Positions 15,788 to 32,511 of a stretch of DNA of 64,000 bases are shown here, in pieces. The translations under genes and the position numbers were made by a program. Numbering within the stretch: position 1 is the stretch's first letter; each line of letters begins with the position of its first letter. Below the pieces are notes generated by a model, which saw only the letters and a list, made by a program, of their open reading frames with translations, did not search any database and had not been told where the DNA came from. The stretch comes from Candidatus Hydrogenedentota bacterium (GTDB lineage: Bacteria; Hydrogenedentota; Hydrogenedentia; Hydrogenedentales; CAITNO01): positions 62,001-126,000 of the forward strand of contig JAAYBR010000031.1 in NCBI GenBank assembly GCA_012730045.1. Reading direction: 5' to 3'.

Positions 15788-15816
15788 ATTGTAGTAAACC
15801 TCAGTTCGGTTGTCAA
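15788..15816 (-). promoter_or_regulatory. Sigma-70 promoter of the pilMN-secretin operon
   Basis: On the minus strand a perfect -35 TTGACA (15811-15816) is separated by exactly 17 bases from the -10 hexamer TACAAT (15788-15793). Transcription would start near 15781, giving a leader of about 120 bases before the ATG at 15659. The leader carries no obvious open frame. Confidence 0.75.
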
Positions 15817-27499: not shown

Positions 27500-28939
27500 T
27501 CAGGGCAGCAGGATGAGCATGGGCCGGAAGGCCACCCGGGTGCCGCCGCAGTAGCCGTCTTCGGACGCGCGAAACGCCTGGGAGGAAAAGAAGCGCGCCG
27601 CCCCCTCCCCCGTGCCCGCCGCCATCACCCGCAGCCCGTGGTTCGAGGCGGGGTCTGCCAACCAGTCCCGCACCTGCGCGGTGACGTCCCAGGAGGCCCA
27701 TTGCCCGGCGGCCGGAACCACCGCGCCGGCGGGCGTGGACGCCGTCTCTCCCGGCGGCCTTTGGGACCAAGTCACCTCTCCCCCTTCGGCGGGACGCCCG
27801 TTTTCGCCGTTGAAGAGGTCGCTGACGCCGCCCCCTTCGGTCCACGGCCCGGCGGCGGCGGACACGCCCACTGCGGGCGGTGTCCCCCCGATACGGTCGC
27901 AGTGCATCCACAGGACGGCCTTTGAAAGCGGCGCGGTGGGCGGGATGCGGGAGAGGTCAAACCGAACCAGGGTGTCGCGGCGGCGTCCTGCGGCGGCAGA
28001 GACGCTCAGGAACGCCTCGCCGCCCGTGTTGTGACCGGGCAGGTCCTCCGCGAGGGTGGCGTCGCTGACGCCGAGGTAGGGGCAGTACCCGCAGCCTTCC
28101 GCGCCTCCGGGGGCGCCATAGGCGGGCATCTGCTGGAGACAGTGGCCGCCCGCCGCCTCGGCGTACCAGTACCGGCACCACATGGCGCAGGCGGCGGCGT
28201 TGTGCTCCATGCCGCCGAAGTAGTAATCCTCCAAATGGGTGACCGTCCACGGAAGCCGCCTCTCATAGTCCGCGGCGAAGGGCGCGGTGACCAGAGGGGC
28301 GCCCCACATAATCATCTGCTCGCGCACGTATCCCGTGCGCAGCTGCTCGCGGGTGACGGAGACGCCCGACACGGTGAGGGCCGTGTGGACCGTGTCGAGG
28401 GGGAAGTAGTCGTTCAGCATGCCCCAGTGGCGCAGGCGGTCCTTCTGGTACCGGATGAGGTCGCCGCCGATCTCCGTGACCTGATGGGTGCCGCCCTCCA
28501 TTTGGGCGCTCTTTTCCAGGAAACTCAGATCGCCGCCGCTGCTGAAATGCCAGGGAATGTCCGCGATGTTGTGGCAGACCGCCCCCAGAAAGAAGGCCAT
28601 TTCCCGCTGCATGCCGGCGGACGGATCGAAGCCCGCGCCCCGCCCCCGGAGTTCACCGGCCCAGGCGCGCATGAAGGGGTGCCAGTGTGACGCTTCGCCC
28701 GCGTCGGGGTTGATGTTGCCGTAGCCCCAGTCGGGAAAGGCGCAGGCGGTGTAGAGGATTTTAAGGTTCGCCCGCTTTGCGACAAGGCTTCCCAGGCCGG
28801 GCAGCATGGCGTCGGCCCCGGCGAGGTACTGCTCCGCGCAGCGGCGGCCGATCTCCGCGTGGGTTCGCGTTCCGATGGCCGGGGCGCCCGGGGCCAGCAG
28901 GGAGGCAAACAGCACGAACAGCAGTGCGGCGCGGGGCAT
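27500..28939 (-). CDS. Exported zinc-dependent phospholipase C-like protein with DNRLRE domain
   Basis: 479 residues. A signal peptide (AALLFVLFASLLAPGAPA) is followed by a zinc-dependent phospholipase C-type helical domain: IGTRTHAEIGRRCAEQYL at the mature N-terminus, CAFPDWGY, and FFLGAVCHNIADIPWHF, where His and Asp residues are spaced as in the S1/P1-PLC fold. The C-terminal 180 residues form a DNRLRE-type cell-surface beta domain: VSDATLAEDLPGHN at its start, RRDTLVRFDLSRIPPTAPLSKAVL, and WASWDVTAQVRDWL. This combination suggests a surface hydrolase of unknown substrate. ATG at 28939 has GGAG 9 bases upstream. Confidence 0.8.
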   Translation of the reverse strand: MPRAALLFVLFASLLAPGAPAIGTRTHAEIGRRCAEQYLAGADAMLPGLGSLVAKRANLKILYTACAFPDWGYGNINPDAGEASHWHPFMRAWAGELRGRGAGFDPSAGMQREMAFFLGAVCHNIADIPWHFSSGGDLSFLEKSAQMEGGTHQVTEIGGDLIRYQKDRLRHWGMLNDYFPLDTVHTALTVSGVSVTREQLRTGYVREQMIMWGAPLVTAPFAADYERRLPWTVTHLEDYYFGGMEHNAAACAMWCRYWYAEAAGGHCLQQMPAYGAPGGAEGCGYCPYLGVSDATLAEDLPGHNTGGEAFLSVSAAAGRRRDTLVRFDLSRIPPTAPLSKAVLWMHCDRIGGTPPAVGVSAAAGPWTEGGGVSDLFNGENGRPAEGGEVTWSQRPPGETASTPAGAVVPAAGQWASWDVTAQVRDWLADPASNHGLRVMAAGTGEGAARFFSSQAFRASEDGYCGGTRVAFRPMLILLP

Positions 28940-29021
28940 GGGGAAGGTCTCCAGAGTAAAAACGGGATGCCTTGTTGACCCGGCACGGCGCGGCCCAGTT
29001 TCGCGGGATGGGCATGAAGAA

Positions 29022-29078: not shown

Positions 29079-29300
29079 CTAGAGCTCGATGCCCGTGGTG
29101 TCGGTGCCGGTGTCGGTGCCGGTGTCCGTGGTGTCATCCACCGTTCCGCTGGGGCCGGTGGCCTTCCACGGGGCCTGGCGGTTGGCCAGCAGCAACCGGT
29201 CAATGATCTCGGTGGTGCTTTCCATTTTGATCTGGAAATTGCTGATCTGGGCCTTTTCCGGGGTCCGGCTGACGGTCTTCAAATGGCTCTTGCGCTTCAT
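29079..29300 (-). CDS. Small peptide 2 (73 aa) with Asp/Thr/Gly repeat tail, unknown
   Basis: A 73-residue protein with a basic N-terminus (MKRKSHLKTVSRTPEK), then QISNFQIKMESTTEIIDRLL, a WKATGPSG segment, and an acidic low-complexity tail of repeated Asp-Thr-Gly-Thr units ending TGIEL. The QISNF core and the following Leu/Ile-rich helix also occur in the 42-residue peptide encoded 17 bp upstream, so the two appear to be paralogues. GGAGG lies 10 bases before the ATG. No signal peptide and no cysteine are present. It could be a precursor peptide or a small regulator; no family is recognised. Confidence 0.7.
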   Translation of the reverse strand: MKRKSHLKTVSRTPEKAQISNFQIKMESTTEIIDRLLLANRQAPWKATGPSGTVDDTTDTGTDTGTDTTGIEL

Positions 29301-29317
29301 GGCATCGGTTCCTCCGC

Positions 29318-29446
29318 TCAGGACGTCTTGATGAACACGTATTCAATGAGCTGATCCGTCAGATTGATCAGGAACTCCTTGAACACCTCGAAATTGGAGA
29401 TCTGTGACAGGGCAGGCTTGCGCGTCACAGGCCGCATGTGCTTCAT
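29318..29446 (-). CDS. Small peptide 1 (42 aa), unknown
   Basis: A 42-residue frame: MKHMRPVTRKPAL, then QISNFEVFKEFL and LTDQLIEYVFIKTS at the end. A perfect AGGAGG Shine-Dalgarno sits 8 bases before the ATG, and a near-consensus promoter lies about 50 bases upstream of that. The core QISNF followed by an amphipathic helix is shared with the 73-residue product of the next gene. The layout (basic head, short helix, hydrophobic end) would fit a peptide pheromone, a modified-peptide precursor or a small membrane-associated regulator. No family is recognised and no modification enzyme is adjacent. Confidence 0.72.
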   Translation of the reverse strand: MKHMRPVTRKPALSQISNFEVFKEFLINLTDQLIEYVFIKTS

Positions 29447-29501
29447 CTAACAATCCTCCTGGTCCGTTTCCGGGACACAACCCGCCCCGGTGTACGGCAC
29501 T

Positions 29502-29530
29502 TTTATACCATGAACCGCAGAGTTTGTCAA
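29502..29530 (-). promoter_or_regulatory. Near-consensus sigma-70 promoter of the small-peptide operon
   Basis: TTGACA (29525-29530), a 17-base spacer, then TATAAA (29502-29507) on the minus strand. This is the closest match to the vegetative consensus found in the window. Transcription would start near 29495. It lies directly after the pckA stop, so the peptides are expressed independently of pckA. Confidence 0.78.
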
Positions 29531-29555: not shown

Positions 29556-31169
<1,614 letters not shown>

Positions 31170-31629: not shown

Positions 31630-32511
31630 CTACAGCTTTTTGGGGCCTTGCAGGATGGCCTGGGTGAAGGGGTTGCAGTGTTCTCCATTGTGCTCCGGGG
31701 GATGGCAGAGCAGGCAGTCCATCTTGCCGCGGGTGTGGGATTTCTCGCCGACATCATGGCATTTCAGGCATCCGGCGGCCTGCGCGGGGACGGGGTGCGC
31801 GCGCTCGAAGGTTTTTGCGTGCACCGCGTTGAGCAGCTCCGCAGCCTTCGCCGCCACGTCGCCCGTGAGGCGCGCGCAGCGCTCGGAACGCTCCGGCGAG
31901 CCGCTGCCCAGGTCGGCCGCCTTGCACCAGCGGGTCACCGACAGGTGGCACAGGTTGTCCCCGGCGACGCTCTGCGGCAGCGCGGTCCGGATGGTGTACG
32001 GGTCGTCCTCAAAGTACCCCCCGTCTGCGGCGTAGCCGTTGCTGGTGTCCGTGGGGAGCACGGTGACGGCATACCAGCTCAACAGCTCGCTCATGACCTC
32101 CTCGGTGGTCTTCTTGTCGCACACCAGGTTGACGGCCGCGCCGCAGCCGTTCAGCGCGCCGCACAGGGAGCCGAACCCGGCCACGCCGCCGCCGCCGTAC
32201 CCCATCATGCCGCAGGGCACCTTGTCAAAGGGATGGCCGGCCGCGTCGGCCAGCGCACCGACAATCGCCGAGAAGGCCCCCTCGCAGCAATGGCCTTTGG
32301 AATAGTGGCGGTGCGCCCGCTTCCGGATGTCCTCCGGATCCAGGGCAGCATAGGACCAGGGCAGGGGCGGCATCGCCGGTTCGGATGCCGGCGCAGGGGG
32401 AGCCTCCGCCGAGGCCCTGCCGACCACCAGACCGCCCAGCCCCGCCGCCCCCAAGACGCCCGTGTGAATGCCCAGATTTCCCAAAAACTGACGACGGTCG
32501 GAAGACTGCAT
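31630..32511 (-). CDS. Tat-exported split-Soret-type dihaem cytochrome c
   Basis: 293 residues. The N-terminus carries a twin-arginine motif (DRRQFLGN) and a hydrophobic stretch to about residue 36. The main domain belongs to the C_GCAxxG_C_C/split-Soret family: HYSKGHCCEGAFSAIVG, GYGGGGVAGFGSLCGALNGCGAAVNLV. The C-terminus has two CxxCH haem sites, CLKCH (about residue 247) and CLLCH (about residue 267). Split-Soret cytochromes of Desulfovibrio are periplasmic dimers with two haems per subunit, of uncertain role in electron transfer. The gene stands alone, flanked by gaps of 460 and 551 bp. Haem c attachment after Tat export is unusual. Confidence 0.85.
   Translation of the reverse strand: MQSSDRRQFLGNLGIHTGVLGAAGLGGLVVGRASAEAPPAPASEPAMPPLPWSYAALDPEDIRKRAHRHYSKGHCCEGAFSAIVGALADAAGHPFDKVPCGMMGYGGGGVAGFGSLCGALNGCGAAVNLVCDKKTTEEVMSELLSWYAVTVLPTDTSNGYAADGGYFEDDPYTIRTALPQSVAGDNLCHLSVTRWCKAADLGSGSPERSERCARLTGDVAAKAAELLNAVHAKTFERAHPVPAQAAGCLKCHDVGEKSHTRGKMDCLLCHPPEHNGEHCNPFTQAILQGPKKL

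Follow-up and report, generated by a model that had tools for sequence, protein, structure and literature searches.

Two tandem small peptides of Candidatus Hydrogenedentota as probable trans-encoded precursors of a phylum-wide RiPP-like system

The window analysed here is a stretch of 64,000 nucleotides from a Candidatus Hydrogenedentota bacterium in which two small frames lie in tandem on the minus strand. The first, p42, encodes a peptide of 42 aa (MKHMRPVTRKPALSQISNFEVFKEFLINLTDQLIEYVFIKTS; 29318..29446, stop included) and the second, p73, a peptide of 73 aa (29079..29300, stop included), with 17 bp between the stop of p42 and the start of p73. Both begin with a head that is a putative leader, residues 1-15 in p42 (MKHMRPVTRKPALSQ; 29402..29446, minus strand) and residues 1-18 in p73 (MKRKSHLKTVSRTPEKAQ; 29247..29300, minus strand), the leader/core boundary being a prediction in each case. 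Shine-Dalgarno sequences are present on the same strand, AGGAGG for p42 (29455..29460) and GGAGG for p73 (29311..29315). The two frames, their ribosome-binding sites and the short gap had been described in an earlier note on this DNA and were all found in the sequence.

The promoter TTGACA-N17-TATAAA that the same note had placed before the pair was located at 29530-29502 on the minus strand. In the 64 kb, just two sites, this one included, deviate from TTGACA-17-TATAAT by one mismatch or none; the other, at 15816 on the minus strand, reads TTGACA-17-TACAAT. A promoter scan missed the site of the pair because its rule for the -10 element needs a final T. Of 29 relatives, 20 have TTGACA-N17-TATnnn ahead of p42, and the promoter is therefore very probably real. 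The strong expression that had been proposed for the pair is a prediction from this promoter. A hairpin does follow p73, at 29040-29024 on the minus strand, but it is weak: one terminator-like site was found when 0.8 was expected by chance, and a strong terminator at this place was rejected since the count is not above chance. Neither Rfam elements nor tRNAs were found at the pair locus.

In profile-profile comparison, p42 and p73 were recognized as the paralogues they had been taken for (probability 97.3, E 2e-11). When each was compared with two relatives, substitutions were mostly synonymous per site, with dN/dS values of about 0.04 and 0.28 for p42 and of about 0.10 and 0.16 for p73, which are rough values from short sequences. 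This range, about 0.04 to 0.28, is not the pattern of non-coding DNA, and p42 and p73 are real coding genes under purifying selection. The invariant residues are M1, H3, P11, F25 and Q32 in 19 sequences of p42, and M1, H6, S20, I33, L37, W45 and K46 in 18 sequences of p73. Thus K46 of p73 is kept in 18/18 sequences, while the conserved Lys is missing from p42 in several relatives and is not invariant there. As had been claimed, the peptides belong to no known family: neither matched Pfam, and the best NCBIfam E-values (0.07-0.15) were far short of the cut-offs. No cysteine was found in p42 and p73, no double-glycine leader in their sequences, and no PDB chain similar to the head.

The AlphaFold model of p73 consists of a helix at residues 21-42 and a disordered tail, with low confidence overall (pLDDT 62.5) and about 41-48 in the tail. 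The Asp/Thr/Gly tail that had been described as a repeat is present; its place is taken in relatives by runs of T alone, of S/T or of G/E, and a T/G run resembling it sits in the p42 linker of one genome. The most fitting description is a disordered, variable tail. A graspetide in which this T/D-rich tail would be the ester core was rejected, the tail being of low complexity and varying to T-only or G/E, with no ATP-grasp gene recognized in the operon described below.

Homologous tandem pairs, which had been named as a check, occur through the phylum, the order of the window being the whole phylum in the genome set used. A p73-type match was found in 52 of 68 phylum genomes (E <= 0.01) and a p42-type match in 40 of 60 (E <= 1). 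Several families have the pair flanked by a co-directional ABC-F gene on one side and by convergent genes for a PknB-like kinase, RsfS, GatB, GatA and GatC on the other. The flanks differ in the family of the window and in some others, and an ATP- or GTP-type PEP carboxykinase (PEPCK) gene lies upstream in some. With the exception of the PEPCK of the window, these identities were read from the sequence with no family search behind them. Since the flanks vary between families, the pair is an independent unit. No immunity gene was found beside it, the neighbours being PEPCK, ABC-F, kinase, RsfS and Gat genes.

In the window, the gene upstream of the pair on the same strand encodes an ATP-type PEPCK (29556..31169). 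At homologous sites it is replaced by a GTP-type PEPCK, the ABC-F gene or others, and is therefore not part of the peptide system. A functional link between the pair and PEPCK was rejected as a general feature, as PEPCK of either type flanks the pair in some genomes only. ATP-type (L105, L106, L123) and GTP-type (L108, L122) enzymes occupy apparently the same slot, possibly a non-orthologous replacement. The convergent kinase/RsfS/GatB/GatA/GatC block is strongly conserved at loci L111, L113-L119 and L121-L124, outside the family of the window. In family f5, the pair locus carries three or four head peptides instead of two, the extra ones being at L121:326-478, at L122:10163 and 10368 (minus strand) and at L123:9452 and 9666. 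Also on the minus strand of the window are genes for a zinc-dependent phospholipase C-like protein with CBM96 (27500-28958; PF00882, PF24517) and for a C_GCAxxG_C_C redox protein (31630-32511; PF09719).

When the p42 profile was run against the window's own genome, it returned the pair and weak matches within 1.2 kb of another contig. In that region, L130, six small ORFs carry the family head, M-K-H-x-x-x-[IV]-[ST]-x-x-P-x-x-A. The head leads into a short linker and then a hydrophobic helix, directly after which a Lys usually stands. The genome holds at least 12 candidate members: besides the pair and the array of six, there are four weaker ones that stand alone and have ribosome-binding sites. 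In L130, the six array ORFs are followed by two GNAT genes, a CPBP-type protease, an ABC ATPase, an ABC permease and a 670-aa protein (L130:6289-8298, minus strand) that is a fusion, described below. The order GNAT-GNAT-CPBP-ABC-ABC-fusion and its spacing are kept in most of the 41 loci read, and the operon either adjoins arrays or sits elsewhere in the same genome. In the window's genome, it is followed by a gene for a PKD-domain and PhoPQ-related protein (L130:2158-6048, minus strand; PF10142, E 3e-106).

Upstream of the fusion gene, 63 head peptides were collected in the phylum. Initially, a permissive pattern and a positional filter, modelled on p42-like matches, served to pick them out, and head similarity alone is therefore partly circular. 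This circularity is mitigated by the C-terminal helices, which form classes that recur between genomes, and by the negative result outside the phylum. In 62 of the 63 peptides, a Lys follows the helix. A model of the 63 peptides, from which p42 and p73 had been left out, was searched against 13,645 small ORFs; p42 of the window ranked first (E 1.1e-6), p73 was found at 1.1e-4 and nearly all significant matches were pair-locus peptides. Without the peptides of the window's own genome, the model still gave 1.3e-6 for p42 and 8.7e-5 for p73. The real heads scored 27.7 (p42) and 21.9 (p73) bits, against at most 10.3 and 12.8 bits for 10,000 shuffles. When the operon-linked peptides were compared by hhalign, the alignment to p42 covered all of p42 (probability 97.5) and that to p73 spanned 32 columns (probability 96.3). 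The head is shared, in the same register, by p42, p73 and the array peptides, and p42, p73 and the 63 operon-linked peptides all consist of a conserved head, a linker of variable length and a variable helix and tail. Judged from these sequences, p42 and p73 belong to a previously undescribed family of predicted small peptides, about a dozen per genome. Their organization is that of encoded RiPP precursors, with an N-terminal leader-like head, the leader status of which is predicted, and a variable core.

At E <= 1e-6, the peptide model matched 50 of 68 phylum genomes and none of 174 genomes outside the phylum. The fusion protein was found in 62 of the 68 genomes, and outside the phylum its model matched proteins only in part, with the SPASM region at the centre of the matches, which is what ordinary radical SAM maturases would be expected to give. 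Peptides and operon are associated over the 68 genomes (Fisher p 0.009-0.024, with no tree correction). Their co-absence comes mainly from one family, f4, in which two genomes (G037, G044) are without the pair, the peptides and the operon, and as the absences cluster there the co-occurrence statistics are weak support. In another f4 genome, G019, the head peptides lie at a contig end and the operon may therefore simply be unassembled. In none of the genomes read was the pair seen next to the operon, and arrays, too, lie apart from it in some genomes. For genomes in which the operon has no array, the idea that the pair serves as sole substrate was rejected, as a genome-wide search found arrays elsewhere in them.

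The profile of the fusion protein matched CteB, the leader-bound SCIFF maturase (5WGG), with an E-value of 6.5e-44 over the RRE, the barrel and the SPASM region, and its C-terminus matched RimL-type GNATs. Its AlphaFold model (pLDDT 86.6) had 5wgg and 5why as best solved Foldseek matches. The N-terminal part aligned with the RRE part of CteB, and the match to the NCBIfam RumMC N-terminal model was weak. An RRE, one of the marks of RiPP systems, is thus recognizable in the fusion, and leader binding is predicted from it. None of the 41 fusion homologues read, of which 39 extend over the N-terminal part, has the radical-SAM motif CxxxCxxC, and CNLRCKYC of CteB aligns to a Cys-free stretch. Four SPASM cysteines (C420, C423, C429 and C452) are invariant, as is a CxxC (C24, C27) in the RRE part. 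The latter belongs to an invariant F-C-x-E-C-D motif that is not present in CteB and is possibly an extra metal or redox site. With the architecture of CteB and without CxxxCxxC, the fusion looks like a radical SAM pseudoenzyme joined to a GNAT domain.

Of the remaining operon proteins, the CPBP/Rce1-like protease (PF02517) keeps its EExxxR and H..N motifs, and the ABC ATPase and permease are conserved, so that a leader protease and an exporter, also marks of RiPP systems, appear to be present, with roles that are predicted. The GNAT2 protein is very strongly conserved. The GNAT fold was found in the operon proteins despite a missing acetyl-CoA loop, the canonical R/QxxGxG/A being conserved in none of the three GNATs (one fused, two free-standing). 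Neither an ATP-grasp gene nor a lanthipeptide synthetase was recognized in the operon.

We regard it as reasonably probable that p42 and p73 carry leaders and are precursors, unlinked or trans-encoded, in a RiPP-like system for maturation and export that spans the phylum. Among the roles that had been offered for them (pheromone, modified-peptide precursor or small regulator), that of precursor is favoured, the peptides being homologous to arrays beside an operon with an RRE/CteB-like/GNAT protein, a CPBP protease and an ABC transporter. Candidate modification genes, which were to be sought next to homologues, were found beside the array peptides and not next to the pair of the window; as the operon lies on another contig of the same genome, these genes are invisible in the window. 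In the proposed scheme, the CteB-like protein would bind the head, as a leader, through its RRE domain, by analogy with CteB, in which the leader sits on the RRE as a beta-strand (PMC8326336). The core would consist of the helix with its usual Lys, and the fused and free-standing GNAT-fold proteins would modify it, the most plausible reaction being acylation of the conserved Lys. Cleavage of the leader at its P-x-x-A-[QA] end would fall to the CPBP protease, and export of the product to the ABC transporter. Since the peptides are constantly present in the phylum and their classes are stable, housekeeping, in the envelope or in signalling, is suggested rather than warfare. A more specific version is put forward tentatively and is rather doubtful: in a core peptide system of the whole phylum, a CteB-type radical SAM maturase would have turned into a non-radical scaffold that keeps leader binding and one SPASM metal site, is fused to a GNAT-fold transferase and serves, in each genome, about a dozen leader peptides, some clustered and some dispersed. 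It would modify the conserved lysine without the usual acetyl-CoA loop, and the exported helical peptides would be housekeeping and not antimicrobial.

The word modification may be wrong in this scheme, since CxxxCxxC and the GNAT acetyl-CoA loop, both catalytic signatures, are missing, and a reading limited to chaperoning or export is therefore conceivable. The head would then be a docking or export tag, and the pseudo-radical-SAM/SPASM-GNAT protein and the two GNAT-fold proteins would be chaperones that pass helical peptides to the CPBP protease and the ABC transporter without any residue being modified. The good conservation of both the head and the transporter genes fits with such a tag. 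We nevertheless hold it to be unlikely, as the very strong conservation of GNAT2 and of the SPASM cysteines suggests more than binding and the near-invariant Lys after the helix is left unexplained. The ABC exporter and the membrane protease would also suit the production of a set of peptide pheromones, of which the unlinked pair at the ABC-F/kinase locus would be one channel. Many paralogues per genome, the pair's own promoter and the PknB-like kinase that is its convergent neighbour at many loci can be cited for this; yet pheromones are usually strain-variable while these classes are conserved across the phylum, no dedicated receptor gene is linked, and the kinase, which is convergent, has gone from this locus in the family of the window. 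Signalling of this kind is improbable.

The recurrence of distinct hydrophobic-helix classes as orthologues in the same genomes, together with the helix predicted for p73, might also point to structural or envelope-active peptides, pore-forming or membrane-shaping, each class being a fixed part of a multi-peptide assembly matured by the operon. As no assembly partner is known and the p73 model is of low confidence, little weight is given to this explanation. Finally, the ABC-F, RsfS and GatB/A/C neighbours at many pair loci could suggest that p42 and p73 are unrelated small basic proteins, for instance ribosome-associated factors, whose head is like that of the array peptides by coincidence. 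The kinase/RsfS/Gat block runs convergent to the pair and is therefore not co-transcribed with it, the neighbours differ in the family of the window, and the head and full-length profile similarities are far above shuffles and background, which makes chance likeness highly improbable. The trans-encoded precursors thus remain the preferred reading.

If this reading is true, the peptide system marks an entire, largely uncultivated phylum. It also raises the question of whether an RRE/SPASM scaffold can outlive its radical chemistry and be reused for other modification or for export, as the CteB architecture without the radical cluster and with a GNAT domain might indicate. Head motif and operon together can serve as a signature in searches, and binding could be tested simply with the RRE, the pair and array peptides. 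The papers found that are devoted to Ca. Hydrogenedentota do not mention RiPPs or peptides, no paper linking the phylum with either was found, and the RRE surveys that were searched do not mention a GNAT or Hydrogenedentota case. The system thus appears to be undescribed so far.

Among known systems, the SCIFF/ranthipeptide system of Clostridia (CteA precursor, CteB maturase, 5WGG/5WHY) likewise has a clade-wide small precursor with an N-terminal leader, and its RRE, barrel and SPASM architecture is matched by the fusion over the length of CteB. SCIFFs are widespread among Clostridia, which has been taken as an argument against an antimicrobial role (PMC8326336). They carry six Cys within 45 precursor residues, whereas the Hydrogenedentota precursors have few or none and gave no match to the SCIFF model TIGR03973; p42 and p73, which have no Cys, were on these grounds rejected as SCIFF precursors. 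Relative to CteB, CxxxCxxC and part of SPASM are gone from the fusion, and a GNAT domain has been added. In addition, two more GNATs, the CPBP protease and the ABC transporter are found here, with 1-7 precursors in the array as well as dispersed ones.

In GNAT-acylated lipopeptide RiPPs, the selidamides and nostolysamides, GNAT genes also lie beside ribosomal precursors. Acylation of the Lys side chain is described for nostolysamides (PMC13060382). A possible acceptor Lys is present here in 62/63 operon-linked peptides and 18/18 p73 sequences and is not invariant in p42. Unlike in those systems, the Hydrogenedentota GNATs are without the canonical acetyl-CoA loop, the leader type differs and no lanthipeptide synthetase was recognized. 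The Bacillus epipeptide locus epeXEPAB has a comparable layout, with a precursor, a radical-SAM-fold enzyme, a membrane protease and an ABC transporter. Its EpeE is an active radical SAM enzyme, unlike the fusion without CxxxCxxC, its leader is a 32-aa export leader and it is not known to have GNAT genes. Class IIb two-peptide bacteriocins likewise consist of two adjacent small paralogous peptides, whereas the present pair has no double-glycine leader and no adjoining immunity gene and is conserved phylum-wide. The Hydrogenedentota system thus lacks a defining feature of the SCIFF and of the GNAT-acylated systems where tested, and partly resembles these two as well as the epipeptide system.
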